Assembly: GCF_000424445.1 (NCBI RefSeq)
Contig: NZ_AUJX01000025.1
Coordinates: 1-60,085 of the forward strand
Direction of reading: 5' to 3'
Length of the DNA: 60,085 nt
DNA from: Oribacterium sp. NK2B42
GTDB taxonomy: Bacteria; Bacillota; Clostridia; Lachnospirales; Lachnospiraceae
The notes beneath the pieces were generated by a model that did not search any database, was not told the origin of the DNA, and worked only from the letters and a program-made list of their open reading frames with translations. The translations under genes and the position numbers were made by a program. Position 1 is the stretch's first letter; every line of letters begins with the position of its first letter. Below, in pieces: positions 5,671-24,465 of this stretch.

Positions 5671-5898
5671 ATGTTTAGCATTTTCCCAAAGAGAAAACCA
5701 AATATCCCGGCATATGACTACGATCCCGAAAAAGAGATACCTGTGATCCGTGCTTCAATATGCAATGGTGAACAGGTTGCAGGATTTAAGGATATAAAGA
5801 CAGGAGTGTTTCATGAGTTAATGCTTATTCGTAGCGATAAGGACATTGCTGAATTCAAAAATGCCTTTAGTCTTAAGGATATTAAGAAGGAGTATTGA
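5671..5898 (+). CDS. Conserved 75-residue protein
   Basis: A 75-residue protein with PVIRASICNGEQVAGFKDI followed by a short strand-rich segment and KEY at the end. Short clostridial proteins of this type are sometimes annotated as aspartate dehydrogenase, but this one is too small and has no dinucleotide-binding motif, so I would not use that name. ATG 5671 has GGAG 6 bases upstream. A two-stranded sheet plus one helix is likely. Function unknown; probably an independent small gene. Confidence 0.6.
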   Translation: MFSIFPKRKPNIPAYDYDPEKEIPVIRASICNGEQVAGFKDIKTGVFHELMLIRSDKDIAEFKNAFSLKDIKKEY

Positions 5899-5901
5899 AC
5901 C

Positions 5902-5973
5902 ATGGAAACAAGACATTATGTTGTGGTAAAAAATCTTTATACTTACATAAAAAATTGTAAAATAAAGAAATAA
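5902..5973 (+). other. Possible 23-residue ORF before the biosynthetic locus
   Basis: An ATG 3 bases after the previous stop opens a 23-codon frame (METRHYVVVKNLYTYIKNCK) with AAGGAG about 9 bases upstream, inside the end of the previous gene. It may be a real small peptide or the 5' end of a lost gene. The DNA from here to 6020 is AT-rich and is the only place for a promoter of the biosynthetic operon, but no convincing -35/-10 pair was found. Confidence 0.25.
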
Positions 5974-6008
5974 ATATGTAAGCAGTGTGTGTGAATGAGT
6001 GCAATCTC

Positions 6009-6024
6009 AAGGAGAACATAATTG
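6009..6024 (+). promoter_or_regulatory. Ribosome binding site fixing a TTG start
   Basis: AAGGAGA at 6009-6015 lies 6 bases before TTG 6022-6024. No ATG or GTG in this frame lies near the expected N-terminus of the adenylation protein, so TTG is very probably the start. A TTG start at the first gene of the locus would keep expression modest. Confidence 0.7.
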
Positions 6025-7488
6025 GACGACTATAAAAAGCAAACAATTCCTCAGGTTCTTGAACAATACAGGGACAGTGACGAGCCGGCCGTGCTCTGTG
6101 GGGATGAAACTGTCAGTTATTGTGAACTGCTTTCCGATGCCCGGAAAATTGCTTCAGGTATACAAAAACGCGGTATCAAAAAGGGCGATTGCGTTGTATT
6201 GCGTTTGTCCCGGGATACGGTTTATATCAGAGCATGGCTCGGAGTGCTGTATGCCGGTGCAATCCAGCTAACATTCCATGATGGATGGCCTGAGAAATTC
6301 ATAGAATCAGCTATGGCTGAGTGCCACCCGGCAATGGTTCTGGACGATAAAGCTATAGGTGAGCTGCTTGAATCTCCTGAACCTTCGGACATTTCTCGAT
6401 TATTTACAGAACTTGATGGAGAGGATCCCTTCCAGATCATCTACACTTCGGGAAGCACGGGACAACCCAAGGGCGCGGTCAATGCCCATCTGACGGCTGT
6501 CAGTCGTACTCTGGCTGCATATGGAGACCCTCTGCCGGATTATTTTGTACATAACTGCAGCAGGCTGCTTTTGGATTGCAGTCTTGGTTTTGTTCTTTCC
6601 TCGTTTTGCATTTGTCTCTGTTTACTGAATAAAAAAACTCTCGTTCTTGCACGGAAGCAGGATATACGTACGCCTCGTGCAATCGCGGAATGTGCCGGAA
6701 AATACGGCGTAGATACTATTCATGTTACCCCTTCCTATTTTCAACAGTATAGAAGTGATCCGGCTTATGGCTCGCTTTTTAGAGAGATGAAGCTGGTGAT
6801 GGCAGGCAGCGAGGCTGTTTCTGAACAGACGGCGCATATGTTGACGGACCTTTCCGGAGGGAAAACGGTTTTCTGCTATGGTGCTTCTGAGATATTTGGA
6901 CCTGCTTTTTTTCAGTTCGGGAGCGAATACCATGGAGGAGATATCTGCTTTAGTGCGGCACCATCCGTTAGGGAGACATATGTGCTCAATGAACAGGGAC
7001 AGGCTGCCGGGATCGGAGAAGAGGGTGAACTCTGCGTGGGAGGAATTGCAGGCAGATTGGGAAGATATCTTGGGTCGTATGCGTCATCTCCTAACTTTAC
7101 AGAGCATTCTGGGCTTGGGCGTTTGTATCTGACAGGTGATATTGTAAAAAGAATGGCTGACGGCAGATTCTGCATCGTAGGCAGAAAAGACTCTATGGTA
7201 AAGCTTTACGGCATGAGGGTTGAATTGGGTGTCATCGAGAGTAAACTCCGAACCATTCCGGGCGTGCTTCAGGCGGCAGTCAAGGTGCAGGGAGAAGGGA
7301 ACGAGGCAAGGCTTTGTGTATGGTATGCTGCTGAGGATCAGGTGAGTGAATCAGAACTTCGCCGGTATCTTTTGGCTTCTTTGCCAAACTATATGGTTCC
7401 CGCTTTCTGGATCAGGATGAAAGAGCTTCCGCTCAATCCAAGCGGAAAGCTGGATCGCAAAGCACTGCAATGGGAAAGGGAACAGTAG
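6022..7488 (+). CDS. Stand-alone NRPS adenylation protein
   Basis: A 488-residue acyl- or aminoacyl-adenylate-forming enzyme without carrier or condensation domain. It activates a carboxylic acid with ATP and passes it to a carrier thiol. Motifs in order: A3 YTSGSTGQPKGA (141-152), A4-like LDCS near 184-187 with the Asp that binds an alpha-amino group, A5 CYGASE (about 285-290), A7 LTGD (370-373), A8 GRKDSMVKLYGMRVE, A10 NPSGKLDR with the catalytic Lys. All catalytic positions are present, so it is probably active on an alpha-amino acid. Its likely carrier is the two-PCP protein at 13.9 kb. The substrate cannot be read with confidence. The 137-base gap after it holds only a 16-codon ATG frame (7491-7541). 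Confidence 0.88.
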   Translation: MDDYKKQTIPQVLEQYRDSDEPAVLCGDETVSYCELLSDARKIASGIQKRGIKKGDCVVLRLSRDTVYIRAWLGVLYAGAIQLTFHDGWPEKFIESAMAECHPAMVLDDKAIGELLESPEPSDISRLFTELDGEDPFQIIYTSGSTGQPKGAVNAHLTAVSRTLAAYGDPLPDYFVHNCSRLLLDCSLGFVLSSFCICLCLLNKKTLVLARKQDIRTPRAIAECAGKYGVDTIHVTPSYFQQYRSDPAYGSLFREMKLVMAGSEAVSEQTAHMLTDLSGGKTVFCYGASEIFGPAFFQFGSEYHGGDICFSAAPSVRETYVLNEQGQAAGIGEEGELCVGGIAGRLGRYLGSYASSPNFTEHSGLGRLYLTGDIVKRMADGRFCIVGRKDSMVKLYGMRVELGVIESKLRTIPGVLQAAVKVQGEGNEARLCVWYAAEDQVSESELRRYLLASLPNYMVPAFWIRMKELPLNPSGKLDRKALQWEREQ

Positions 7489-7625
7489 TTATGGAGCTTA
7501 GTAAAAAAGAACTTGATTTGGAAACGACCATTCAGATTTGACGATATCTGTCCTTTGACGTATCATACAAGATATTGATAAATATTCATCCTTGGGTTTT
7601 TAGGAGGAGTTAAAGGAATAGCATT

Positions 7626-9836
7626 ATGATGAACGACGATTATCGTGACTTCCAGAGGATGGTTGTTCAGAACCAAAGGATACTTGCGAACATGGCCAGC
7701 TATATACAGGCGAGGTCTGTGTCAGCGTCTGGGTCTGTGCACTTGGGGCAAAAGGAACGGCCATTCGACTGTGGCGGAAGGAATTTTGTTTGGTTCGACA
7801 AAGTCATCCAGAGATATGCCGGACAGGTCGGCAAGGCGGCTGGGGAATCTGCGAATTGGGCCGGCAAAGCGGCTAGAAGACCTGCAGATCACGTCGACAA
7901 GGCTCTTGGGAGTTCACCTTCGGTCAAGGATGAGGTCTCCCATGATCATACGGCAGAAAAAAAGGCCTTTTTCGACACCTCAAGGTACACTGCTGCAAAT
8001 CTTTCCGAACACGATCTGAGCAAAATCATCAGCCTGTACGGAAATGCCGTGCAGGACATCTACGAGCTTGCAGCCGGACAAAAATGGATGCTGGAGGAGG
8101 GAAAACATGTGAAGTCAGCATTTTTTCTCCAGATTCTGACAAAGGCCGTGATCTCGCTGGATCCCGCTACTTTTCGCCAGCAGGCCGATCTGGTCTGTGA
8201 AAAGCATGAAAATCTCAGATCAGCCTTTGTCTACAGAAACGTGAAGCATCCCTACAGGGTCGTTCTCAAGGACCGCCACCCGGAGATTAATTATTTTGAT
8301 TTGTCCGACCTTAGCATGGAGGAATTTGACAAGCGGATATCCAAAATGATGGAGGCAGATCGGCGGCGAGGCTTTGATCTCGAGAAGGATTCTCTGCTCC
8401 GGATCAGCGTGTATAAAAGCTGTGAAAAGGATACTTATGCGCTGATTGTCTCTCAGCCACATATCAATTCAGACGGCACTAGCCTCGGTATCCTGTTCGG
8501 CGATCTCTTTGTCGGCTATGCGCTTGATTTAAACGGCATTGACAAAAAGATCGAAGAACAGTCGTATCAGGCCTATGCGGAGCATCTGCAAAATGTTGAT
8601 ATAGACAAGGAACTGTCTTGGTGGAAGGAATTTTTGGGAGATATGAGGGAGAATGTTCTGTTGCCCGGACAGAATCCCAGTGACCTGGAGTATAAGCGGG
8701 CTGAGTATTTCGCACCGTTTTCAGAGGACGATGTGGCTACACTCAAGGCTTTTCAGAAAAAGCTTAAGGTGACGCAGTTCACCCTTCTTCAGACCCTGTG
8801 GGGCATCATGATTGCAAGATTGGGAGGAGAAGACAGTATAGTGTTCGGTGCTGTCACGTCCGGAAGGGATGCCGAGGTATCGGACAGCATGAAGCTTGAT
8901 GGCGGATTTATAAATGCAATCCCGGTGAGGATAAAGTTTTCTGAGGATGAAAAATATGCGGATCTGGTGAAACGCTCACAGGAAGATTTCGTCCGCTGCA
9001 TGGAAAATTCCCACTGTTCTCCGGGACAGATCCAGAGAGCGTTGGATAGAAGTCAACCGGTGTTTGGTCATATTCTGAACAATCATAATTTCGTAAAGGC
9101 AAAGCAGCCGATCTCCGGTGGAGACAGCCTTTTCGGCATACGTATCCTCGGGGGTGATGCCTATGACAACCTTTCGGCAGATCTCTGTATCTATTTTACG
9201 GAGAAGGAGGGAAAGCCCGGCAGCAGCTATTCCTATAACGAGAGGGCTTTTTCCAGAGAGGTCATACAGCTGCTCAGCGAGCACTTTATGAAAATGATTT
9301 CTGCGCTTGCTGATGTGACAGAGGATACCGTTATCGGCGATTTTCCAGCGTTGGACGCAGACCTCATACTTGCTGTGCAGGACAATGAGCGGATCAGGCA
9401 GGCAAAGATCGCGAGTTATATGAAGAAGCATCCGCTTTTTGGTTATGCGGATGACAACGAACTGTTTTTCTTGGCAGATGAATGTGTCATGACGTCCTTT
9501 GCTGAGGATGAGACCATTGTGCGCATCGGCGAGAAGCAGGGCAGCATACCTATCCTCATGCGCGGAAGGGCGATCGTATACGGAGAGACCAGAGACGGAT
9601 GGAACAATCCCGTTCGTATCCTCAGGCAGGGAAGCGTGCTTTCCTATGCATCTCTCCTCGGCAGGAAGGAGGAGAACATCATCACCAGCGGGGAGGATGA
9701 TACGGTGATTCTCTTTGTTCCATCGGATGTGTTGCTCAATCTCATGGAAACCCATGCAGAGACTTCACTCAGGATCATAACGGATCTGATGAATCAAAGG
9801 GAAACCTACATGAAGCTCTGGTTGAATGCAGGGTGA
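7626..9836 (+). CDS. Condensation domain fused to cyclic-nucleotide-binding-like domain
   Basis: A 736-residue protein. Residues 1-30 are a Met/Gln-rich helix (RMVVQNQRILANMASYIQ) that resembles a docking helix, followed by an Ala/Gly-rich region to about 130. Residues 137-580 are an NRPS condensation domain, opening with VQDIYELAAGQKWML and carrying SQPHINSDG, where His279, Asp283 and Gly284 keep the second half of HHxxxDG. Residues 600-735 (HPLFGYADDNELFFLADEC ... GSIPILMRGRAIV) match the beta-roll of the CRP/cNMP-binding fold. The usual GE(L/I)A...R(T/S)A phosphate-binding cassette is not evident, so nucleotide binding is uncertain. AAAGGA precedes ATG 7626. I know of no such fusion in NRPS systems. 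Confidence 0.8.
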   Translation: MMNDDYRDFQRMVVQNQRILANMASYIQARSVSASGSVHLGQKERPFDCGGRNFVWFDKVIQRYAGQVGKAAGESANWAGKAARRPADHVDKALGSSPSVKDEVSHDHTAEKKAFFDTSRYTAANLSEHDLSKIISLYGNAVQDIYELAAGQKWMLEEGKHVKSAFFLQILTKAVISLDPATFRQQADLVCEKHENLRSAFVYRNVKHPYRVVLKDRHPEINYFDLSDLSMEEFDKRISKMMEADRRRGFDLEKDSLLRISVYKSCEKDTYALIVSQPHINSDGTSLGILFGDLFVGYALDLNGIDKKIEEQSYQAYAEHLQNVDIDKELSWWKEFLGDMRENVLLPGQNPSDLEYKRAEYFAPFSEDDVATLKAFQKKLKVTQFTLLQTLWGIMIARLGGEDSIVFGAVTSGRDAEVSDSMKLDGGFINAIPVRIKFSEDEKYADLVKRSQEDFVRCMENSHCSPGQIQRALDRSQPVFGHILNNHNFVKAKQPISGGDSLFGIRILGGDAYDNLSADLCIYFTEKEGKPGSSYSYNERAFSREVIQLLSEHFMKMISALADVTEDTVIGDFPALDADLILAVQDNERIRQAKIASYMKKHPLFGYADDNELFFLADECVMTSFAEDETIVRIGEKQGSIPILMRGRAIVYGETRDGWNNPVRILRQGSVLSYASLLGRKEENIITSGEDDTVILFVPSDVLLNLMETHAETSLRIITDLMNQRETYMKLWLNAG

Positions 9837-9931: not shown

Positions 9932-11944
9932 ATGAGGGAAACTTTGGATATTGTGTATGCATCGGATCAGACTTACCTGTTCTTCTGCTGTGTCTCCATT
10001 TTGTCCCTGATGGAGCAGCTTCCCGAAAATCAGAAGGTTAGACTTCATCTGCTTCTTGATGAGAGCTTCAGTGAGGAAGACCGAAGGCTGTTAAATTATC
10101 TGACAGACAGTTATAAAAACCTGAAGCTTTCGGAACATCGAATCTCTGAGGCAGCTTTTGACAGCAGAGACTTTAAGGATTCCCTATGGTCTAAGGCCGC
10201 CTGTTATCGGCTTATCCTGCCAATGCTCCTTCCGGATGTGGATATTTGTCTGTATATTGATTCAGACACGCTTGTGGTGGGAGACATCCTCCCACTTTGG
10301 GAAACGGATATGACGGATTACTATCTGGCAGGAGTTTTTGATGATATTTCCCCTGTTCGGGAACAGACCGTGAGAGACAATATTCCTGACATCCAGACCT
10401 ATATCAATTCCGGCGTGCTGCTCATGAATCTTTCACTTATGCGGAGGCATGGGATCCAGAAAAAACTGATGAAAGGTATACAGGACTATCTGGTGGTGGA
10501 TCAGGATCTTTTAAACGTCGTATGCTATGGAAGGATACGGCTTCTGCCATCGGATTACAACTGTATTCCCGGTGTATTCTGTGATACTCCGAGGATCCTG
10601 CATTTTCTGATGCGTGACTATATACGTCCGTGGAAAAACCTGCGTGCGGAGGGAAGCGATCTCTGGTGGCGTTGCGCTGAGAGATTTGAGGGACTGTACG
10701 ATATCAATGGACTCAGGGAAAAGGCCGATTGGTATGAGATGGGCAGTCTTACTGCCATTCTTCGAAGAAGCAGTGATTATGAGCGGATTTATGTGGTTGG
10801 ATCAGGTATGGATGCACAGCGGATTTACAGAGCTCTGCGCCTTGGCAGACTGAGCGGTCTGCAAAAGCTTCTAAAGGAGGACGATCCTGCCCCCGATGTA
10901 TCCGGGACGCTTCTTATCGTTGCGACAAAAAAGAAGAAGATACCCATTGTACAGTCTTTTTTAAAAGAGAGTGAAAGTGAAGGTCAGGTGTTTTATTTTG
11001 CAAAGTGGCCGCTCTCATTCTATCGACTACTTCCCAAGAACTGTGCTCGTGAGGTGAATGGAGAACTTCTGATGTGGGAGTATGGTGCAGACAGCAAAGG
11101 AACAGCTTCCATGACGTTGCTGCTTGAAATCAGTGCCGCCAGATTTCCGGAACGGGAGGCTCTGACAGAATGGCGGGACGGTGCAGCTACCTCGGTATCA
11201 TGGAGGGAATTGAACCGAATGGCAAACCGAATGGCAGACAAGATCCGGCGGCAGAATATCAGGCGGGGATCTGTGATCCGTCTTGGTTCGGATGGCAGAA
11301 AAGGTATAAGTTTTCTTGCCGGTATGCTTGGAATCATGAAAAGCGGATGCATCGCCGCTATGGATGAGAATGACGATTATCCCTGTATATCGATTCCAAA
11401 GGAGGGAGAGTATTTATCCGATAATCCGCCTTTGGAGGTTCTGCCGGATGAACCGCTGCTTATTGAGGATACTGCTGTGGCTTTGGATAATCCTGTATGG
11501 ACAGGGCGCAGAATATGTGAGATGGCAGAGGTTTTTCGAAGGAGAACAGGTTGGCATGGTAAGGACAGGCTGATGATCTGTCAAGGAGAAAGTTCTTTGG
11601 TCTGGGTGCTTCTTGCCGCAGCGTTTTATGAAGGCAGTCCTGTAACCTTTGTTTGTGATGATGCTATGGGTGATTTTCTGACGGCTGCAAAGGAAAAGAA
11701 TGTTACGGTCATCTTTTCAGAGAATTCTGTTTTAAAAAGAACCCTATACAGAAGGGAAAAAGAAACATTGGATCCCGGATGCCTTCGGATGTTGATCACG
11801 GAGACATTTTGGAAAGCCCCGGGGAGGTCGGCAGAACTCGATGAGGGAGAGATTGCTGACAAATGGCATACTCTCGTACCATCCGTTCCGGTGAACGGAC
11901 AGGGATATGAAGGTAGCTTCTGCTATGATAGTGAATGGTATTGA
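9932..11944 (+). CDS. GT8 glycosyltransferase fused to half an adenylation domain
   Basis: A 670-residue protein. Residues 1-270 are a family 8 glycosyltransferase: LDIVYASDQTY at the start, metal-binding DSD at 110-112 (CLYIDSDTLV), and TYINSGVLLMNL near 156. Residues 280-370 look like a small Rossmann-type linker (RIYVVGSGMDAQRIYRALR). Residues 385-670 resemble the N-terminal lobe of an AMP-binding enzyme (FPEREALTEWRDG, SWRELNRMANRMADKI, WVLLAAAFYEGSPVTFV). The A3 loop and the whole A7-A10 part are absent, so it cannot be a working adenylation domain. The half domain may be structural or bind a partner. GAAAGGAAGGGG precedes the ATG. Confidence 0.75.
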   Translation: MRETLDIVYASDQTYLFFCCVSILSLMEQLPENQKVRLHLLLDESFSEEDRRLLNYLTDSYKNLKLSEHRISEAAFDSRDFKDSLWSKAACYRLILPMLLPDVDICLYIDSDTLVVGDILPLWETDMTDYYLAGVFDDISPVREQTVRDNIPDIQTYINSGVLLMNLSLMRRHGIQKKLMKGIQDYLVVDQDLLNVVCYGRIRLLPSDYNCIPGVFCDTPRILHFLMRDYIRPWKNLRAEGSDLWWRCAERFEGLYDINGLREKADWYEMGSLTAILRRSSDYERIYVVGSGMDAQRIYRALRLGRLSGLQKLLKEDDPAPDVSGTLLIVATKKKKIPIVQSFLKESESEGQVFYFAKWPLSFYRLLPKNCAREVNGELLMWEYGADSKGTASMTLLLEISAARFPEREALTEWRDGAATSVSWRELNRMANRMADKIRRQNIRRGSVIRLGSDGRKGISFLAGMLGIMKSGCIAAMDENDDYPCISIPKEGEYLSDNPPLEVLPDEPLLIEDTAVALDNPVWTGRRICEMAEVFRRRTGWHGKDRLMICQGESSLVWVLLAAAFYEGSPVTFVCDDAMGDFLTAAKEKNVTVIFSENSVLKRTLYRREKETLDPGCLRMLITETFWKAPGRSAELDEGEIADKWHTLVPSVPVNGQGYEGSFCYDSEWY

Positions 11945-11974: not shown

Positions 11975-13738
11975 ATGAAAAAAGAAAAAACATTGATGGA
12001 GGGAGTATTCTCCAGATTATTTACAGTCATGCTGGTTGGAATGGTGTGTGGTATCCTGTGCAATGTGATTGACTCGGCAGTTACAGGACAGTTTCTCGGA
12101 AGAGATGCAGTAGCGGCTTCAGGACTGACCGGTCCGTTTGTTTCACTGATCGGGCTTGTGATCGCATTGTTTGTGGCTGGAACCGGACAGCTGTGTACAG
12201 AGAATATGGGAAAGGCGGATATAGGAAAAGTCAACCAGATTTTTTCAACCATGGTTGTTTGCGTTACGGTATTTGGTCTTCTGATGACAGTTTTATTTAC
12301 GGCTTTCTCTCCGATGTTTTTGCCTTTCATGGCAAAGGGCGCGGATCCGCAGGTTATGGAGATGGCAGACGGTTATCTAAGGGGTTATTCTCTGATCATT
12401 ATTCCCATGAGCCTCTCTTCTCTGCTCAACAGTCTTTTTGCTCTGGATAATGACCAAAAGCGAAGTCTAGGCTATGCAGTGATCATTCTGGTCGCTGATG
12501 TAGTTCTGGATCTTTTAAATGTTTTCGTTTTTCACGGTGGGCTGCTCGGTATGGCATTAGCGTCTGTAGTCAGCGCAGTTATAGGTCTTTTGTACCTTTT
12601 GCTGCATTTTCGTCAGGAAGGGCATCTTCTCAGATTCAGCATGAACAACTTAAACTTCCGGGATGTTCCCGAGGTTCTCGTATACGGATTTGCCGGGGCA
12701 ATCCCCATGCTGATGGGAAGCTTTAGATCCGCCTCCTTCAATTATGTTCTGCTGAAAGCAGGAGGTACGGACGCAATTGCGGCTTTTTCGGCTGCAGGCT
12801 GTGCCTTTATTCTGCTTGTGTCCCTCACCATGACCATACAGTCCGTGACGGCATCTCTGACGGGGCTTGCCTTCGGAGAAGAGGACACCGATTCCATTGG
12901 ACAGATACTTCGCATCTCCCTTGTATTCACCTACAGGGTATTTCTGGTGATAGGACTCCTTTTGTTGATTTTCGCAGCTCCTGTTTCCTCTATTTTCATC
13001 CGGACAGAGGATACAGCCTTGAGACATCAAACAACAGCTTTTATCAGATACATGGTGATTCAAAACCTGTTTGGGATAGCCAGCTATTGCTTTAGCGGAA
13101 GCTTCACAGGCACAGGACATGTCAGGCTGAATTATCTTGTGAGTATTTTCAGGGATGGTTTATTTCCCTGTCTTTTGGTGCTTATTTTAGGGCTTGGGTT
13201 CGGAATACCCGGGGCAGAGGCAAGCATACCGGCAACGGGTATTTTGACACTGCTTAGCTGCATTTGCATTCCGGCTGTCATAAACCGTGTTTTCCCAAGG
13301 TCTGTTCGCGATCTTCTGATTCTTTCAGAGGACTTTGGGACGAAGCCGGGCGAATGCTTTGAGGCCTCGGCTAAGGATATGGAGCAGGTTGTGGATATGT
13401 CCGAAAAGGCACGTCAGTTCATCATGGAGAGAGGTGAAGATGTGAAAATGGCAAATCACGTCGCACTGTTCATTGAGGAAATGGCAAAAAACACGGTGCA
13501 ATACGGATTTAAGAAAGTAAAAAACGGTCGCATCGAGTTAAAGCTGATACTTAAGGAGCAGAAAAAGATGATACGGCTTAAGGATAACGGAAGACCTTTT
13601 GATCCCATAAGATGGCTTGAGGAAAACAATCCGGAAGAACCGGGAAAGAACATTGGCATCCGGATGATCATCGGTCTGTCAAAGAAAGTGCAATATATCC
13701 CGGGTATGGAACTTAACAATATTATCGTGGAATTGTAG
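11975..13738 (+). CDS. MATE transporter fused to anti-sigma-type ATPase domain
   Basis: A 587-residue protein. Residues 1-435 form about twelve membrane segments of the MATE family (VIDSAVTGQFLGRDAVAASG is the typical opening), which exports organic compounds using an ion gradient. Residues 455-587 are a cytoplasmic GHKL ATPase domain of the RsbW/SpoIIAB type: N-box FIEEMAKNTVQYGF, G1 LKDNGRPFDP, G2 GKNIGIRMI. The ATP-binding motifs look intact. Such a domain could bind a sigma or anti-sigma partner and sense transport. It starts 30 bases after the GT8 gene and probably exports or flips the product. The 181-base gap after it holds no gene; a TTGACA lies at 13822 without a good -10. Confidence 0.85.
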   Translation: MKKEKTLMEGVFSRLFTVMLVGMVCGILCNVIDSAVTGQFLGRDAVAASGLTGPFVSLIGLVIALFVAGTGQLCTENMGKADIGKVNQIFSTMVVCVTVFGLLMTVLFTAFSPMFLPFMAKGADPQVMEMADGYLRGYSLIIIPMSLSSLLNSLFALDNDQKRSLGYAVIILVADVVLDLLNVFVFHGGLLGMALASVVSAVIGLLYLLLHFRQEGHLLRFSMNNLNFRDVPEVLVYGFAGAIPMLMGSFRSASFNYVLLKAGGTDAIAAFSAAGCAFILLVSLTMTIQSVTASLTGLAFGEEDTDSIGQILRISLVFTYRVFLVIGLLLLIFAAPVSSIFIRTEDTALRHQTTAFIRYMVIQNLFGIASYCFSGSFTGTGHVRLNYLVSIFRDGLFPCLLVLILGLGFGIPGAEASIPATGILTLLSCICIPAVINRVFPRSVRDLLILSEDFGTKPGECFEASAKDMEQVVDMSEKARQFIMERGEDVKMANHVALFIEEMAKNTVQYGFKKVKNGRIELKLILKEQKKMIRLKDNGRPFDPIRWLEENNPEEPGKNIGIRMIIGLSKKVQYIPGMELNNIIVEL

Positions 13739-13919: not shown

Positions 13920-15077
13920 ATGAAGTCTGAAGAAAAAATCTCATTGCTTAAACAGGCATGGAAGGAAGTTTTCGGAGTAGATGAGGTTGCCGATGATGCT
14001 GATTTCTTTGACGATGGGGGGGACTCCATCAAGGCGGTACAGCTTTCATCTTGGTTGGTTCAGAAGGGCATAAAGCTGGATTTGGGCAAGATCTTCTATA
14101 CGCCGGTTTTGTCAGATATGGCTGAGACATTGGAGGAAACGGATGCCATGTATGTACCGGCGGAGCTTCTTACCAAAGATGTTATGCAGCAGAAACTGAA
14201 TGAGGTGATGCAGGAGTCTTCATCGAACCAAGCCGCAGATGACCAACAGATATGTGATCCGGAAACGATGCAGCAAGTCAATGCCGCAGATGGCCAACAG
14301 ATATGTGATCCGGAAACGATGCAGCAGGTCAATGCCGCAGATGGCCAACAGATATGTGATCCGGAAACGATGCATCAGGTCAATGCCGCAGATGGCCAAC
14401 AGATATGTGATCCGGAAACGATGCATCAGGTCAATGCCGCAGATGACCAGCAGATATGTGATCCGGAAACGATGCAGCGGGCAAATACCGCAGATGGCCA
14501 GCAGATATGTGATCCACAACTTGAACCCCGGGTTTACGGTGGGATGACTTCACTGAAGATGATGAGGTCAATGCTTAAACTCATGATCATGCAGCAGCAG
14601 ACGGTACTGCAGATGATGGAGATCATGGCAGAAATGATCATACCACCTGTCACTAAATCTCCGATGGGAAATATGCCCGGACAATATTTCGTGCCAAACA
14701 AGTGGATGGGAAACAACAATCCGTTTATGAAACAGCCTTCGGGAGATATGAAGGCAAAGGTGCAGAAGGCAATGGAACCTTATATTTCAAGAAAGGCAGA
14801 TAAGCCGATCGAGCAGCCAAACGTGATCGAAATTAACAAGGCCAAGGTTGCCAAGCCTGTCAAAAGTGCAGAGGAGGTTCTGGAGCATGTTCTTTCCGGA
14901 CTTCTGAAAAACGGATTCAATAAAACAGATGATTTATTTGAACAGGGGCTCACTTCTCTGGATGCCGTCAAGATTGTAACCAGGTGCGGAGAACATGGCT
15001 ACTCTGTTAAAATGCAGGATATCTATATGCATTCTACTTTTGATGAGTTGGTGAAGTACATGACTCCGGGTGAATAA
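13920..15077 (+). CDS. Double carrier protein with Cys-containing tandem repeats
   Basis: A 385-residue protein. Residues 1-75 are a peptidyl carrier domain (FFDDGGDSIKAVQL, phosphopantetheine Ser36). Residues 107-199 are five copies of a 17-residue unit DGQQICDPETMHQVNAA plus a partial sixth, each with one Cys. Residues 205-235 are a Met/Gln-rich helix (MIMQQQTVLQMMEIMAEM), then a Pro/Gly/Asn-rich linker. Residues 310-383 are a second, more acyl-carrier-like domain (DDLFEQGLTSLDAVKIV, Ser346). Each carrier would need a phosphopantetheine arm. It has no catalytic domain, so it must be loaded in trans, perhaps by the stand-alone A protein. AAAGGAAG precedes the ATG, and a terminator follows. 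Confidence 0.85.
   Translation: MKSEEKISLLKQAWKEVFGVDEVADDADFFDDGGDSIKAVQLSSWLVQKGIKLDLGKIFYTPVLSDMAETLEETDAMYVPAELLTKDVMQQKLNEVMQESSSNQAADDQQICDPETMQQVNAADGQQICDPETMQQVNAADGQQICDPETMHQVNAADGQQICDPETMHQVNAADDQQICDPETMQRANTADGQQICDPQLEPRVYGGMTSLKMMRSMLKLMIMQQQTVLQMMEIMAEMIIPPVTKSPMGNMPGQYFVPNKWMGNNNPFMKQPSGDMKAKVQKAMEPYISRKADKPIEQPNVIEINKAKVAKPVKSAEEVLEHVLSGLLKNGFNKTDDLFEQGLTSLDAVKIVTRCGEHGYSVKMQDIYMHSTFDELVKYMTPGE
14238..14516 (+). repeat. 51-base in-frame tandem repeat inside carrier gene
   Basis: Five direct 51-base units begin at 14238, 14289, 14340, 14391 and 14442, followed by 24 bases of a sixth. The units differ at a few positions only (for example Gln/His, Gly/Asp), so they arose by recent duplication or are kept alike by recombination. 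The length is a multiple of three, so copy number can change without breaking the frame. Each unit contributes one Cys in QICDPETM. Confidence 0.95.
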
Positions 15078-15136: not shown

Positions 15137-15251
15137 ATATCGGGAACCGCTAAATTGAAAGAGAAAAACAGGATTACATAAAACTGTGGCTCAGGGTGCT
15201 TTGAACCAGATAGGAAAAAAGGCGGCGTATCCGGATGGAGAGGAACAGAAG

Positions 15252-18200
15252 ATGAATCTGAAGGAAGCTGACAGGTTTCAGACAATTCTCGATGGAATCA
15301 TTAGATACAGAGAAAGCGAAAAGACTGCCGTACTATGCGGGGAGGAAAGGATATCCTACAGAGACCTGATCCGTGATGCCATGCTGCTTTCGCATGCTCT
15401 GAGAAACAGGGGGGTAGGAAAAGGTTCTTTTATTATCCTTGCTATGAACCGCAGCGTGCATATGATTAAGGCTCTGCTTGGGATACTGTATGCGGGAGCG
15501 GCTTATGTGGCTGTGGATCGGACGTGGCCTTCCCGGAGGCTTTCGTATATACAAAAGGACTGTCAGGCCTCATTCATACTAGATGATGTGTTTTATGAGG
15601 GTCTCTGCCGGGAAAGCGTGGCGATTCTACGGCAGAGAAGCTTTGACGTGGACGAAAAGGAGCTGTACCCTGGCGAGGAGAATCTTCCCAGAGTAGAGGG
15701 CTGTGATGCGATCGCGGTATATTATACCTCCGGCAGTACGGGGGAGCCCAAGGGTACGGTAACCCATCACGGAGTTTTCCTGAATGAGGCCATGCCTGTG
15801 TCTTGCAATATCTGTTCCTGTAAGACTGCCCTTCTATGCGACGTGGTTTTTTCCATGGGCAATTTTGCATACGGTGCCGTTGCCTGTGATATTTTTTATG
15901 CTCTGTTTAACGGGATGACCCTTGTGCTCGCATCGGAAAAGGAGCGGCTCTCGCCGGATCTTTTAGGGAAGTGTATGCTTAAGCATCACGCGGATGCTCT
16001 TCTGGGTACGCCATCCATGCTGATGGGATATCTGGAGGATGCTACGTTTGCCTCCGGCTTTTCAGCTCTTAAGAGAGTCATCCTGACAGGAGAAGCCCTG
16101 TCCGAGGATGCGGCTTCAAGGATCGCTTCCTGTACCGGAGCTGTCCTCTTTGACGCCTTCGGTGCATCGGAGGTGCGAAATTACGCCTTTACAGAGATAA
16201 AGCCCGGTGAAACTATCAAACTGGGATCACCCACCCGGCAGGCTGTGCTGCTGTTGCTTGGTGAGGAAGGCATACTTCATGAAGCGGATAAGGCCTCCCC
16301 TGATACGAAGGGGGAGCTTTGTATCGGAGGAGAGCCGGGCAAATACGGATACTATCTCAACCACCCGGAGCTGACAGCTCAGAAGTTTACCGTTACCAAA
16401 GAATACGGAAGGATCTATCATACCGGAGATATGGCGATGGTAATGAAGGATGGGAGTATCATTCTGACGGGACGCGCCGACGGTCTGCGAAAGCTCCATG
16501 GACAGCGCATGGAGACCGGTGAGGTGGAGAGGATGATGGAACGGTATCCCGGGATTTACAAGGCGGCGGCGGATATCCGCGGTGAAGGGGCGGATGCGGT
16601 TCTTTGTGGATGGTATAAGGGAAATGAGATCGATGAGGATGGGCTCAGGACTTTTCTGGCAGAAAGACTGCCGGCTTTCATGGTTCCTGCCCGGTTGATG
16701 GCACTTAACGAGCTGCCGCTTAATGATAGCGGAAAGCTTGACAGACGTGCCCTTCCGGATATTCCCGCAAAGGACGTGATTTTCATTCCGCCTCAAAACG
16801 ATCTGGAAAAGCTTCTGTGTGATACTTTTGCAAGGGTATTAAGGCTACCATCAATTCCGGGAAGAGATTCCGGCTTTTTCGGGTTGGGAGGAGATTCCAT
16901 CAAAGCCATGATGCTGATCAGTATCATGGAGGAGTCCGGATATCATCTGTCTATGGCAGATATGCTTAAATATTCGACGCCGGCGCAGCTTGCGGCATGG
17001 CTTGACCGGGAGGAATCCACGGTAAAAACCTCTGTGGAGGTAAAGGCTCCGGAGCTGTTCACGCTTCCTGAGGAGTTGATGACGCTAAGGGAGGATGCGA
17101 ACATAAAAACAGTGCTTCCTGTCAGCAATGTAACCGACGTTTATCTTAGGATGAAGGGGCTCGGGATCTCTGACCGCCGAAATGTGACAAGGGGAAAGTT
17201 CTATGTTTCCCGAGGCTTTACAGAGGAAGAGTTTCGTGACCGCGCAGAACACCTTGTCAAGAACCATCCTGCTCTCAGGTCTGCCTTCAGGCAGGACAGC
17301 TCCGGAAGGTTCTGGCAGGTATTCTATAAGGAGTATCAGCCGGTCATATATTATAAGGATATCCGGAAGCTGTCGGGGGAGGTAAAGGCAGGGTTTACAG
17401 ACGGCTTCCTGAAGGTCATGGATATGGGAGAAGGACTTTTTCAGGCCGCATGCCTTCTTCTTTCTGACGAAAAGAGCGTTCTTTTGCTTTGTGTAGATCA
17501 CACCATCGCAGATGGGATATCTGTTCAGATCATGGCTTACGAGCTGGCTTCTCCCGATTACAGGAAGCTATCGGAGGATGCTTTGCTGTCTCACAGAGAG
17601 AGGGTTATGCAATATCTCACCCCTCCCGCTCCTGTCCGTGACTATTATCGGAAGGCGCGGCCCCTGTGGAAATCGATAGAGAGCCTTCGTCAGGATCAGC
17701 CGGACAGAAAAGTCCGCAGGGTATCTCTTACGAAAGATGAAACAGGACGACTTAATCAGATCCTGGCAGAACGTGGTATCCTTCTCTATACCTGGGTTCA
17801 GTTCTGTTACGGAAGAGCCCTTTTGGATGCCCTTTCAGGAGAAGAGATCTGGCTTTTGACCCTGGAATCCGGCAGATATCCCGACTGGAAGGACGATATG
17901 AGGACAGTCGGAAACCTGATCATCGGCACACCGGTAAAGATTAGCCGCGATATGACTGCAAAAGCCCTGCAGGAAAAACTGTTTATGTTAAGGAGTGGTC
18001 CATGGCTTTCGGATAGCGATATCCTGCGTGACGGAAAGTGGATGGGGATCTACGAGGGCATCACCTCCAATATGTTTGACGGCATCGGGAACGAAAATGA
18101 ACCCGTGGTGGAATTATGGGAGGATCGTCCGAGAACCGGAAACAGTATGGAGCTTACGGATAAGGCGCTTGTCATCGAGCTTCGTCATCCGGATCAGAAG

Positions 18201-18272
18201 GAAGAAAATGAGCGTTTCGATCAGGTGGAGGTGAAACTGAGGGAATGGATATTACATATCCTGTCACTGTAG
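15252..18272 (+). CDS. NRPS protein A-PCP-C (first)
   Basis: About 1006 residues. Adenylation domain, residues 1-510: A3 YYTSGSTGEPKGTV, A4-like LCDVVFSMG with an Asp, A5 FGASEV, A7 YHTGD, A8 GRADGLRKLHGQRMETGE, A10 NDSGKLDRRALP. Carrier domain, about 515-590: FFGLGGDSIKAMML with the attachment Ser. Condensation domain, about 620-1000: LCVDHTIADGIS, keeping the second His, Asp and Gly of HHxxxDG. The order A-PCP-C is unusual, since most modules run C-A-PCP. It would load its own carrier and pass that unit onward through its C domain. I chose ATG 15252 (GAGAGG upstream); the frame is open from 15186. Its end overlaps the GT2 gene by 28 bases. Confidence 0.88.
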   Translation: MNLKEADRFQTILDGIIRYRESEKTAVLCGEERISYRDLIRDAMLLSHALRNRGVGKGSFIILAMNRSVHMIKALLGILYAGAAYVAVDRTWPSRRLSYIQKDCQASFILDDVFYEGLCRESVAILRQRSFDVDEKELYPGEENLPRVEGCDAIAVYYTSGSTGEPKGTVTHHGVFLNEAMPVSCNICSCKTALLCDVVFSMGNFAYGAVACDIFYALFNGMTLVLASEKERLSPDLLGKCMLKHHADALLGTPSMLMGYLEDATFASGFSALKRVILTGEALSEDAASRIASCTGAVLFDAFGASEVRNYAFTEIKPGETIKLGSPTRQAVLLLLGEEGILHEADKASPDTKGELCIGGEPGKYGYYLNHPELTAQKFTVTKEYGRIYHTGDMAMVMKDGSIILTGRADGLRKLHGQRMETGEVERMMERYPGIYKAAADIRGEGADAVLCGWYKGNEIDEDGLRTFLAERLPAFMVPARLMALNELPLNDSGKLDRRALPDIPAKDVIFIPPQNDLEKLLCDTFARVLRLPSIPGRDSGFFGLGGDSIKAMMLISIMEESGYHLSMADMLKYSTPAQLAAWLDREESTVKTSVEVKAPELFTLPEELMTLREDANIKTVLPVSNVTDVYLRMKGLGISDRRNVTRGKFYVSRGFTEEEFRDRAEHLVKNHPALRSAFRQDSSGRFWQVFYKEYQPVIYYKDIRKLSGEVKAGFTDGFLKVMDMGEGLFQAACLLLSDEKSVLLLCVDHTIADGISVQIMAYELASPDYRKLSEDALLSHRERVMQYLTPPAPVRDYYRKARPLWKSIESLRQDQPDRKVRRVSLTKDETGRLNQILAERGILLYTWVQFCYGRALLDALSGEEIWLLTLESGRYPDWKDDMRTVGNLIIGTPVKISRDMTAKALQEKLFMLRSGPWLSDSDILRDGKWMGIYEGITSNMFDGIGNENEPVVELWEDRPRTGNSMELTDKALVIELRHPDQKEENERFDQVEVKLREWILHILSL

Positions 18273-21447: not shown

Positions 21448-24400
21448 ATGTATACATTCAAGGACATCTGGAAGGGCGCAGACGAAAACGTCACCGTACA
21501 TGAGCTTCTTGAGCGTACAAGGAGCTGTGAAGGGATCGCCATGGATATATGGGGCGAGACCATGAGCTATCAGGTCTTTCACGAAAGATCCGATGCTGTG
21601 GCGGCATTTTTGCAGCACAGGGGATATGGCAGGGGTGATATGATCCTCGTGCGCATGGAGCTTTGCTGTGATCTGTACTGTGTCATCACCGGCGTGATAA
21701 AAGCCGGCGCTGTCGTGGTGCCCCTCGATAAGGAGCTTCCCGACGCTCGTCTAGCGTTGATCATGGAGCAGACATCCCCGGTCCTTCAGATCACGGATGA
21801 GTTGGCGGAAAAGATGCTGACAGAAGGGAAAGAACTCACCTTTTGTCCTGCAAACAAGCAGATGTCATCTCAGGATGTCATAGCCATCCTGTATACATCG
21901 GGTTCTACAGGGGTTCCCTGCGGCATCCGTGTGATTTCCAGTGTCATGGTATGCAGCCTCCTTCCGATACCGGAAAACAGGATACTGTCAGAGGCAATAG
22001 GGGATTGTACAGCTCTTTTTAATATCAGCCATCCTTCAGTTGCTTTTGGATTTACGAACTTTTATTACACGATCCTGTATGGAAAAAAGTTTGTGCACAT
22101 TCTTATGGGGCAGGCGGACACCATGGAGCGGATTGCTGCAAAGCTGAATGAGAATGAGAGCTGCTTTTTGTTCTTCCCGCCATCCGCTGTTTTAGCCTGT
22201 CTTGACAATGAACGGGTACGCATGGCCTTTTCCCACGTAGGTGGTGTCATGGTGGGCTCGGATATCGTCAAACCCTCTCTGATGGAGGAAATGAGAAGCG
22301 TGCTGCAGCCGGGTGCCAGGATCGTCATCCTCTATGGGAGCTCGGAGGTCGCCCTTGCCACCGCAAGGATTGTCGTGCATCCGGAGAAGGCACATTCGGT
22401 CGGTTTCCCCACTGCCTTTTCCCGGATCGAGATTGTGGATGAGAACCGAAGACCCCTGCCCGTCGGAGAATCGGGTGAAGTAAGTGTGCGGGGAATCCGT
22501 GTGAACATGGGCTACATCGGCGCTGAGGATCAGAAACAGAACAAGATCGTCTTTCATCCGGATGGAACCCGTACCTGGTACTCAGGGGATCTCGGGTATC
22601 TGAAGGAAAACGGAGAGCTGTTTGTACTGGGAAGAATGGACCGGATCATCAAGCATCATGGATACCGGCTGGATCCCGTGGAGATCGAGGAATGCTTCAA
22701 ACGGGAGCTTGGTGTAAAAAATGCTGCGGTCAAACAATTTGAAATTGCGGGAAGATCCGTTCTGTGCGCCTTTTATGAACACACCTTTACGATGCCGGAG
22801 GAAGAGATTCGGCAAAAGCTCTCAGATAAGCTTCCCCGTTACAGTATCCCGGAGCGGTTCGTGCAGTTGGATAAAATGCCGTTAACCGATCGCGGGAAGC
22901 TTGACTACCGCGCCCTTTCCCTGCCGGATTCTGAAGGGCAGGCCCCCTATAAGGCGCCCAGGACAAAGGAGGAAAGGCAGATCTGTGAAGCCTTTGCAAA
23001 GGTGATGAAGCTTTCCCGCGTAGGGGTAAATGATAGCTTCTTTGCCCTGGGAGGAGATTCCATCCTTGCGGCAGGAGTTCTTTCCATGCTGAGGTATGAG
23101 GGACTGGAGCTTACGGTTGCTGAGCTTTTCCAAAAACCGACTCCTGCCATGCTGGCCGGCTGTGCAAGGCATGTGACTTTACCTGATCAGACAAAGAAGG
23201 ATTCCTTTGCCGGAGAAAGCGGCCGTGGGGAGGAGCTGTCCTGGAAGGATCGGCTGCCGGAGGAACTGGCATATCTTTCGGAGGATGAAAGGATAGAGGC
23301 GGTTTATCCGACAGACCCTTCCACAGGCTTCTATCTGTTTTTGCAGGAATCCGGGAGCGACTACACAAGAGGAAATATGATACGCTTCCTGATCCGCTGT
23401 AAAAGAGGATTTACGGAAGCCGCCTTCAGAGAACGGGTAAAGCAGATCACGGCAAAGCATCCTGTGCTGAGATCCTCTTTTGTGCGAGCAAAAGACGGAA
23501 AGCCATATCAGGTATTCAGGAAGGAGACAGAGCCTTCTGTCTGGTATAAGGATCTGGGCTCCCTGTCCGAAGAAGCCCGTGAACGGTTCCTTGGCGGATT
23601 CTTTCAGGTGATGGAAGAGGAGGGAAGCCTTTTTTCGGCAGCCTGTTTTCCGGTGGCTGATTCCTGCTGCGAGCTGCTTCTGAGCCTTCGCCATGTGCTG
23701 ACAGACGGGCTTTCCCTTTATGAGGTGATACGTGAACTGACGGCAGATTCCATCACGCCGGATACAGATGCCTTTTATCTGTGGCGGGAGAAGCTGATGC
23801 AGGAAGAGGACAGGATCCCGCCTGAGCTTCTTGAGCATTACCGGGATTTCGGGGAGAAGATGCTTCTTCCCTCCGGCAAGGGAACGGGAGATTTTACGGT
23901 CAGGGTGCGGAAGCTTTCTCTTGATCCGGACAAGACCCGGGCTATTCAGGAAAAATGCGCCGCAGAGGGCGTATCTCTGGTCACCTATGCCGAGTACTGC
24001 TACGGAAAAAGTCTTCTGAAGGTCATGAGCCGTGACCAGCTCTGGTTTTCCCATCTGTATTCCGGCAGGAGCCCGGAGCTTTCCGGAAGCGATGCCATCG
24101 TGGGAAATCTTTTCTACACGATGCCGGTGAGAATAGATAACCGGATGACTGTACAGGAATTTCAGGAGGAGCTCCTTCTGCCCTGGCGGTATCCCTACAG
24201 CACGCAGAATTCTCTTTACAGAAGATTGAACCGTTTTGTCGTTGAGGAAGGACTGGTATCCAATCACTTTACCGAATTGGGGGAAAATGTGTTGGAGATC
24301 CGGGATATTCAGGAAAACACACGTACCGGACATTCGGTTGAAAGCAGGGATGGCCGTCTGACCATTACCCTTCGGCATTTTGACCGGGAAGAGGAAAACA

Positions 24401-24465
24401 GGTCATATGATCAGATCGAAGAAAATCTTCTGTCCCTGCTTAATCAGGTATCGTCTGAGCACTGA
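21448..24465 (+). CDS. NRPS protein A-PCP-C (second), atypical A domain
   Basis: A 1005-residue protein. Adenylation domain 1-500: A3 is YTSGSTGVPCGI, with Cys where Lys is usual; the A4 region reads FNISHPS, with Asn where the alpha-amino-binding Asp is expected; A5 LYGSSEV, A8 GRMDRIIKHHGYR, A10 TDRGKLDYRAL with Lys kept. Carrier about 510-580: FFALGGDSILAAGV. Condensation about 610-1000: LSLRHVLTDGLS. The Asn at the Asp235-equivalent position is known from aryl-acid-activating enzymes such as DhbE, so the substrate may lack an alpha-amino group. GGAGG at 21427-21431 precedes the ATG by 16 bases. Confidence 0.87.
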   Translation: MYTFKDIWKGADENVTVHELLERTRSCEGIAMDIWGETMSYQVFHERSDAVAAFLQHRGYGRGDMILVRMELCCDLYCVITGVIKAGAVVVPLDKELPDARLALIMEQTSPVLQITDELAEKMLTEGKELTFCPANKQMSSQDVIAILYTSGSTGVPCGIRVISSVMVCSLLPIPENRILSEAIGDCTALFNISHPSVAFGFTNFYYTILYGKKFVHILMGQADTMERIAAKLNENESCFLFFPPSAVLACLDNERVRMAFSHVGGVMVGSDIVKPSLMEEMRSVLQPGARIVILYGSSEVALATARIVVHPEKAHSVGFPTAFSRIEIVDENRRPLPVGESGEVSVRGIRVNMGYIGAEDQKQNKIVFHPDGTRTWYSGDLGYLKENGELFVLGRMDRIIKHHGYRLDPVEIEECFKRELGVKNAAVKQFEIAGRSVLCAFYEHTFTMPEEEIRQKLSDKLPRYSIPERFVQLDKMPLTDRGKLDYRALSLPDSEGQAPYKAPRTKEERQICEAFAKVMKLSRVGVNDSFFALGGDSILAAGVLSMLRYEGLELTVAELFQKPTPAMLAGCARHVTLPDQTKKDSFAGESGRGEELSWKDRLPEELAYLSEDERIEAVYPTDPSTGFYLFLQESGSDYTRGNMIRFLIRCKRGFTEAAFRERVKQITAKHPVLRSSFVRAKDGKPYQVFRKETEPSVWYKDLGSLSEEARERFLGGFFQVMEEEGSLFSAACFPVADSCCELLLSLRHVLTDGLSLYEVIRELTADSITPDTDAFYLWREKLMQEEDRIPPELLEHYRDFGEKMLLPSGKGTGDFTVRVRKLSLDPDKTRAIQEKCAAEGVSLVTYAEYCYGKSLLKVMSRDQLWFSHLYSGRSPELSGSDAIVGNLFYTMPVRIDNRMTVQEFQEELLLPWRYPYSTQNSLYRRLNRFVVEEGLVSNHFTELGENVLEIRDIQENTRTGHSVESRDGRLTITLRHFDREEENRSYDQIEENLLSLLNQVSSEH

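Follow-up and report, generated by a model that had tools for sequence, protein, structure and literature searches.

The present analysis concerns a stretch of 60,085 nucleotides of the genome of Oribacterium sp. NK2B42 (contig NZ_AUJX01000025.1; the whole stretch is referred to below as the window) and, within it, the open reading frame (ORF) 7626-9836, which is a genuine fusion of a condensation (C) domain of the nonribosomal peptide synthetase (NRPS) type and a domain with the fold of cyclic-nucleotide-binding domains (CNBDs). Its product, called here the C-CNBD protein, belongs to a conserved enzyme type and is not a singleton. We propose that it is a condensation enzyme acting in trans, whose CNBD-fold tail would be a regulatory or docking module and one input of a partner switch operating at the protein level; the probability that we assign to this reading is somewhat below one half (about 0.45).

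Domain composition and predicted structure of the C-CNBD protein

The C-CNBD gene is a single unbroken frame of 736 amino acid residues (aa), with the sequences AGGAGG and AAAGGA located 18 and 8 bases, respectively, upstream of its ATG. The gene and its parts are as follows:

7626..9836, + strand: C-CNBD protein, free-standing condensation domain with a CNBD-fold domain, 736 aa (Pfam, AlphaFold2)
7626..8006, + strand: N-terminal extension, residues 1-127, with helix 3-35, low confidence at 30-107 and helix 101-115 (AlphaFold2)
8049..9326, + strand: condensation domain PF00668, residues 142-567 (Pfam)
8457..8477, + strand: catalytic motif P278-H279-I-N-S-D283-G284 (sequence comparison)
9408..9833, + strand: CNBD-fold tail, residues 595-736, with the [LM]W motif (W732) at its end (Pfam, fold, tail alignment)

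An earlier note on this DNA described a C domain followed directly by a cyclic nucleoside monophosphate (cNMP)-binding tail, and a retained H279-x3-DG motif. The domain order is borne out by the Pfam match to PF00668 at residues 142-567 (E 7.6e-64, 216.5 bits), by the match of the tail to PF00027, cNMP_binding, which that note had expected (residues 624-710, E 1.3e-6, 28.8 bits vs. the curated cut-off of 27.5), and by the domain junction in the AlphaFold2 model, where the C-domain helix 544-563 and a helix 578-601 are followed by the CNBD up to the final residue. Residues H279, D283, and G284 are indeed present, and the motif reads PHxxxDG; thus, the second His, the Asp, and the Gly of HHxxxDG are kept, and the first His is replaced by Pro. 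According to the sequence and the model, no helix-turn-helix DNA-binding domain comes after the CNBD, and the protein stops past the CNBD C-helix. Residues 1 to about 127 fall outside both domains; this extension is mostly of low confidence between residues 30 and 107 and is weakly conserved across the relatives described below.

The AlphaFold2 prediction for the full protein used 17 sequences of the group, and one predicted model each was considered for the protein and for the tail. The full-length model has a mean predicted local distance difference test score (pLDDT) of 78; most of the C domain and of the tail scores above 80, and residues 30-107 and 488-501 stay below 50. For the tail modelled alone, the mean is 91.7. 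A Foldseek search with the whole model returned condensation domains (SrfA-C, E 2.9e-37, target template modelling (TM) score 0.86), and the nearest solved relatives of the window C domain are bacitracin synthase 3 and SrfA-C. The tail returned CNB-B of PKG II (5jiz, E 7.2e-10, TM 0.80) as well as DNR and GlxR, and a profile built from 28 tails, when compared with the sequences of the PDB, matched cGMP-dependent kinases and Crp/Fnr proteins (4byy, E 1e-18).

The earlier note named a frameshifted neighbouring gene as a possible source of the tail. An artefact of this kind, in which an assembly error or a frameshift would have fused two genes, is ruled out, because the gene is one open frame here and the same continuous fusion is carried by uninterrupted frames at 27 other loci in many genomes.

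Conservation of the C-CNBD fusion

The survey of 397 genomes of the same family, in which two or three candidates per genome were scored, revealed at least 14 full C-CNBD proteins in at least 12 genomes, as well as one NRPS whose C-terminus is formed by a tail of this type; since so few candidates were scored in each genome, the number of C-CNBD proteins is a lower bound. The first search for relatives (60 matches) had matched only C domains, apart from the window itself, and a scan of GTDB contigs with the single window protein gave 13 pattern matches, none of them a relative. An alignment of three members used against the GTDB contigs led to 70 loci, among which 18 (L123-L140) are C-CNBD relatives by coverage and identity. 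Two of them (L136 and L139) end before the tail and were excluded from the alignments, which leaves 16 with the tail; L131 and L133 coincide with G175:C78 and G175:C3, respectively, and each was counted once. Beyond the window, the fusion is present at 16 loci with the catalytic motif and at 11 without it. The remark of the earlier note that its author was unaware of any peptide synthetase with a domain of this kind agrees with the literature searched, but the protein belongs to a conserved group. The fusion layout was established with Pfam for seven relatives (PF00027 above cut-off in six, not in L045; PF00668 in six, not in L050) and with tblastn, a profile search, and home-made hidden Markov models (HMMs) for the others. 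The relatives come from Lachnospiraceae, Butyrivibrio, Eubacterium, Blautia, Christensenella, Clostridiales, and bins assigned to Coriobacteriales or an actinobacterium, several of them from the rumen, and include one named isolate, Sporomusa ovata DSM 2662.

The PHxxxDG motif is present in all 17 members located in NRPS clusters (the window counted) and in none of the 11 other relatives (L045, L047, L049, L050, L052, and L104-L109), which combine a motif-less condensation domain with the same CNBD-fold tail; one of the latter, L107, retains H-S-S-D-G, which is one residue shorter. A tree was calculated for 83 C domains by a quick method, with at most three references per locus and matches of at least 330 residues; it contains several long branches. 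In it, the 17 NRPS-cluster members form one clade (Shimodaira-Hasegawa-like approximate likelihood ratio test (SH-aLRT) 99) and, together with the 11 motif-less relatives, one side of a branch (SH-aLRT 84). In the one close pair compared, L123/L124, tail and C domain have equally low ratios of non-synonymous to synonymous substitutions (dN/dS 0.034/0.29 and 0.039/0.30, respectively). The best 15 matches (at least 85 bits) of a tail-profile search of 299 genomes are all C-CNBD proteins or the one NRPS, and the matches listed next are mainly proteins of Crp/Fnr size, the best with 79 bits. The margin by which the tail of the NRPS falls into this subfamily is therefore small (85 vs. 79 bits). This NRPS (L103:9951-16400) is a multidomain protein ending in the CNBD-fold tail, and because its C domain sits elsewhere in the tree, it probably gained the tail in a separate event.

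The nucleotide-binding cassette and possible ligands

In cNMP-binding domains, a Glu of the cassette binds the ribose and an Arg binds the phosphate. When the cassette columns are fixed by alignment to PKG, none of the 28 tails has Glu at the Glu column and none has Arg at the Arg column, so that the description of the cassette as degenerate in the earlier note was right. The column after the Glu column holds E or D in 10 of the 11 motif-less copies and S or A in 11 of the 17 copies of the NRPS kind, 12 of which have K or R one column ahead of the PKG Arg column. Also conserved are G-W (residues 658-659; 16/17 of the NRPS kind) and the C-terminal [LM]W (26/28 tails).

The loss of the Glu from all tails makes canonical sensing of cAMP or cGMP unlikely. 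A classical sensor tying peptide synthesis to the nucleotide level would be in line with the PF00027 match above cut-off and with the presence of a class III cyclase (PF00211) in 8 of the 13 genomes that encode C-CNBD or NRPS-CNBD proteins. Besides the missing Glu, it is opposed by the Oribacterium genome itself (99% complete), where no class III cyclase was found by PF00211, the other cyclase classes not having been searched. We regard such a sensor as very improbable, and the coupling to a cyclic-nucleotide signal considered in the earlier note is disfavoured.

As the K or R is kept in 12 of 17 members, it is possible that the tail binds some other ligand. It could sense another small molecule (candidates include haem, nucleosides, and phospho-ligands) and thereby exert allosteric control over condensation, in the way that the cAMP-bound CNBD of mycobacterial PatA controls the acetyltransferase (PMC8007912). 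The fold search, which returned the sensor domain of DNR and trypanosome PKA subunits titled cAMP-independent, one of them guanosine-bound, points in the same direction. However, no ligand is known, the K/R column is off by one relative to that of PKG, and the five members of the NRPS type without K or R would need another binding mode. Allosteric control by such a ligand appears to us unlikely, though clearly less so than cAMP or cGMP sensing.

The carrier protein and other genes of the cluster

The genes encoding the proposed partner of the C-CNBD protein, a carrier with two peptidyl carrier protein (PCP) domains, and other assembly-line proteins with adenylation (A) domains are located in the window as follows:

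13920..15077, + strand: carrier PCP - QxCxP repeat linker - PCP, 385 aa, proposed C-CNBD partner (PF00550, two stretches)
14247..14516, + strand: six QQICDP repeats of the carrier linker, one every 17 aa (repeat scan)
6022..7488, + strand: free-standing adenylation domain just upstream of the C-CNBD gene (PF00501, E 1.1e-44)
15186..18272, + strand: NRPS module A-PCP-C of the same cluster (Pfam)
21448..24465, + strand: NRPS module A-PCP-C of the same cluster (Pfam)
31623..34559, - strand: NRPS module A-PCP-C (Pfam)
9932..11944, + strand: GT8 glycosyltransferase followed by a piece whose match to the adenylation profile is confined to positions 1-74 (PF01501, E 2.8e-32; PF00501, E 1.1e-7)

At 15 of 19 loci (the window and L123-L140), the stretch that holds the C-CNBD gene also holds a gene with PCP domains; none was seen in the stretches of L127, L128, L132, and L135. 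Eleven of these 15 carriers are complete PCP-linker-PCP proteins, and four are cut by the contig end and have one PCP. The linker contains 2-12 QxCxP repeats in 14 of the 15, the fifteenth (L130) being a fragment without the linker. Among the 13 C-CNBD proteins scanned for such repeats, that of L129 has six of them in its N-terminus, which links the carrier to the C-CNBD protein. Possibly, the repeats serve docking, which is a guess on our part.

Two further observations concern the remaining genes. The layout of the GT8 protein with its partial adenylation piece resembles those at L123:11973-13958 and L124:11043-13013, and positions 38163-40847 of the window encode an 894-aa protein in which an amidohydrolase is joined to an alpha/beta hydrolase.

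Partner-switching domains near C-CNBD genes

Partner-switching systems are represented by RsbU/RsbW/RsbV and SpoIIE/SpoIIAB/SpoIIAA. Of the 20 NRPS-type C-CNBD loci, 8 have domains of this type in their neighbourhood, and in some of these the domains are fused to cluster proteins (neighbours were annotated with home-made HMMs, and selected genes were checked with Pfam). In the window, they are represented by the exporter gene:

11975..13738, + strand: MATE exporter with a C-terminal HATPase_c_2 (RsbW-like) domain (PF01554, E 1.3e-24; PF13581, E 5.5e-10)
13313..13735, + strand: HATPase_c_2 domain of the exporter (Pfam PF13581)

The N box of this exporter is EEMAKN, and the E-E-x-x-x-N box is present in 20 of 21 MATE-HATPase proteins, the exception (L213) being without its Asn. 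Relatives of the HATPase tail (E 1e-6 or better) were found in 40 of the 397 genomes, with most of the listed matches in frames of about 600 aa. A fusion of MATE-HATPase size lies within 20 kb in 5 of the 20 loci (the window, G175:C3, G439:C25, G448:C36, and G449:C79), compared with 0.33 expected by chance (Poisson P 2.5e-5). When the window and G175:C3, both of which had been known before the count, are set aside, 3 of 18 loci have such a fusion, with 0.26 expected (P 0.002). In this estimate, HATPase frames of the fused size (560-680 aa) were counted by eye from hit lists, and the MATE part was checked in the five frames near C-CNBD genes only.

Besides these five, three loci (G175:C78, G439:C28, and L129) have partner-switching domains of other kinds. 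The STAS domain is the second element. At G439:C28, a fusion of a methyltransferase-like protein with STAS is above the cut-off, and its start overlaps the C-CNBD stop codon by ATGA, while in the G175:C78 cluster, the STAS match of such a protein is just below the cut-off (20.8 vs. 22.6 bits). The methyltransferase part of these fusions is unrecognised by Pfam and owes its name to a glycine-rich motif identified by visual inspection of P0006. All 15 aligned STAS domains have a serine, at a varying position, in the loop before the glycine; this loop is where such domains are phosphorylated. A further STAS match, interrupted by two stop codons, lies at the end of the C-CNBD cluster contig G175:C78 (17512-17757). 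Fuller sets accompany the C-CNBD gene at L129 (SpoIIE, STAS, and HATPase genes) and at L226, i.e., G448:C36 (MATE-HATPase, SpoIIE, STAS, and HATPase).

Such domains also accompany NRPS clusters in which no C-CNBD gene was seen in the stretches fetched. The partner-switching set is full in L111 and partial in L112 (no STAS seen) and L110 (no stand-alone HATPase), and L113 has STAS and MATE-HATPase. The L103 NRPS is flanked by genes of a phosphopantetheinyl transferase and two SpoIIE proteins on one side and by a HATPase gene on the other. With regard to the motif-less relatives, that of L106 comes after a dCache-HAMP-SpoIIE gene and a HATPase_c_2 gene, GGDEF-EAL, STAS, and STAS-ABC genes are downstream of that of L109, and that of L050 adjoins a MATE gene, with an A-PCP gene 2.3 kb off on the same strand and a STAS protein farther on. 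In the stretches fetched for L104-L109, the home-made HMMs revealed neither A nor PCP domains, nor any ordinary C domain.

Elsewhere in the genome of the window, a STAS-adenylation fusion adjoins an SDF transporter (G000:C19; L204:3918-5798 and 5838-7592) with a weak N-terminal HATPase_c_2 match (21 bits vs. the cut-off of 27.4). Methyltransferase-like proteins with a C-terminal STAS domain are encoded at L205:5473-6759, L206:5338-6588, and L210:6389-7723, and the STAS domain of the first is confirmed by Pfam.

Proposed mechanism and its alternatives

We suggest that the C-CNBD protein, which keeps the second His, the Asp, and the Gly of the catalytic motif, is a free-standing NRPS condensation enzyme that would form a peptide bond in trans. 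Its substrate would most likely be held by the PCP-(QxCxP)n-PCP carrier of the same cluster, loaded by stand-alone or modular A domains. Because the tail has the CNBD fold without the cassette Glu of cAMP and cGMP sensors, it would most likely be a regulatory or docking module, binding a protein or a ligand other than a cNMP. The docking role considered in the earlier note fits this picture, to which the neighbouring genes, not considered in that note, may add a regulatory context; on the whole, its observation is confirmed and its interpretation partly supported. We propose that a partner-switching circuit may control the assembly line at the protein level, with the tail as one of its inputs; the other parts of this circuit would be the kinase-like HATPase_c_2 domain on the MATE exporter, the STAS domain on the methyltransferase-like protein and, in some clusters, a SpoIIE phosphatase.

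Several observations weigh against this proposal. There is no direct evidence that ties the CNBD to HATPase or STAS. In 12 of the 20 loci, no HATPase was found on the contig within 20 kb, and the stretches fetched showed neither STAS nor SpoIIE, the whole contigs not having been searched for the latter two; nine of these 12 contigs are shorter than 25 kb, and that of Sporomusa ovata, also among the 12, is long. The window contig itself has no SpoIIE (PF07228) and no STAS (PF01740). Four of the five motif-less loci checked with Pfam (L045, L047, L049, and L052) have neighbours unrelated to NRPS, e.g., HD, MecA, HrcA, and DnaK at L049. In more distant comparisons, divergence is faster in the tail than in the C domain (33% vs. 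62% identity between the window and L125). Finally, a row of STAS, HATPase, and cNMP genes is found at only one (L216) of eight loci of stand-alone cNMP-type proteins, where the cNMP domain, having kept the GE of the cassette, is of another subfamily; such a row is not claimed here as a general ancestor.

The 12 loci with no signalling domain nearby in what was searched are also consistent with a tail that is a plain structural or docking module, used for dimerisation or for docking of the carrier and devoid of signalling, with the nearby partner-switching genes regulating, e.g., transcription. The absence of the Glu from all tails agrees with it, the [LM]W end could be an interface, and the low-complexity N-termini and the repeat linkers suggest scaffolding. 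On the other hand, tails of the same type are found on motif-less relatives, of which one neighbours SpoIIE and HATPase genes, and at the terminus of an NRPS whose cluster includes SpoIIE and HATPase. We consider this explanation possible, although not probable.

A condensation enzyme working in trans, with a regulatory or docking tail that may belong to a protein-level switch, is the reading that we prefer. Its most specific form is tentative and, in our view, rather doubtful: the CNBD enzyme, the STAS tailoring enzyme, and the HATPase exporter might each hold one piece of a SpoIIE-type circuit, and STAS phosphorylation would decide which parts assemble or act, with no sigma factor involved. 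If true, such switching would gate peptide synthesis and export jointly and after translation. To our knowledge, the regulation of NRPS assembly lines has been described mostly at the level of transcription, and the conserved C-CNBD enzyme, some of whose clusters have kinase-like and antagonist domains on the exporter or a tailoring enzyme, makes control of peptide synthesis at the protein level testable with a few purified proteins. It also suggests a possible target of the phosphatases and antagonist whose genes were reported beside the NRPS genes of a rumen methanogen, which is an archaeon and hence has no sigma factors.

Comparison with known systems

In the literature searched, we found no report of a condensation-CNBD fusion, no paper joining NRPS with a STAS domain and SpoIIE, and none combining three of the terms STAS domain, MATE family, nonribosomal, and HATPase. 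A search on NRPS with antagonist, phosphatase, and MatE led only to PMC2812497, and the available part of a paper on rumen NRPS clusters (PMC8241843) does not mention 'cyclic nucleotide'.

The C-CNBD protein shares the profile match, the fold, and the His, Asp, and Gly of the motif with the condensation domains of NRPSs such as SrfA-C and bacitracin synthetase 3, but differs from them in being free-standing, in having Pro in place of the first His of the motif, and in its CNBD tail and long, variable N-terminus. The tail, in turn, shares the profile (PF00027) and the fold with the CNBDs of Crp/Fnr proteins and of PKG and PKA; in contrast to these, the window tail type is without the cassette Glu, ends in [LM]W, and is joined to an assembly-line enzyme, and, unlike in Crp/Fnr, no DNA-binding domain follows it. 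Some C-CNBD clusters resemble the RsbU/RsbW/RsbV and SpoIIE systems in holding SpoIIE, HATPase_c_2, and STAS, whereas the fusion of these domains to the exporter and to enzymes and the addition of a CNBD set them apart, and no sigma factor has been shown to be involved. An enzyme joined to a CNBD is known from the mycobacterial PatA-type acetyltransferase, in which the CNBD is fused to a GNAT domain and bound by cAMP (PMC8007912); the CNBD is N-terminal there, whereas in the C-CNBD protein it is C-terminal and non-canonical. The NRPS clusters of Methanobrevibacter ruminantium are flanked by genes of serine phosphatases, an anti-sigma factor antagonist, and a MatE exporter, which were proposed to sense the environment and to regulate NRPS expression (Leahy 2010, PMC2812497). 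These clusters share with those described here the location of partner-switching-type genes and of a MATE exporter beside NRPS genes; the available part of that paper mentions no C-CNBD fusion, while in the C-CNBD clusters signalling domains are fused to the cluster proteins.

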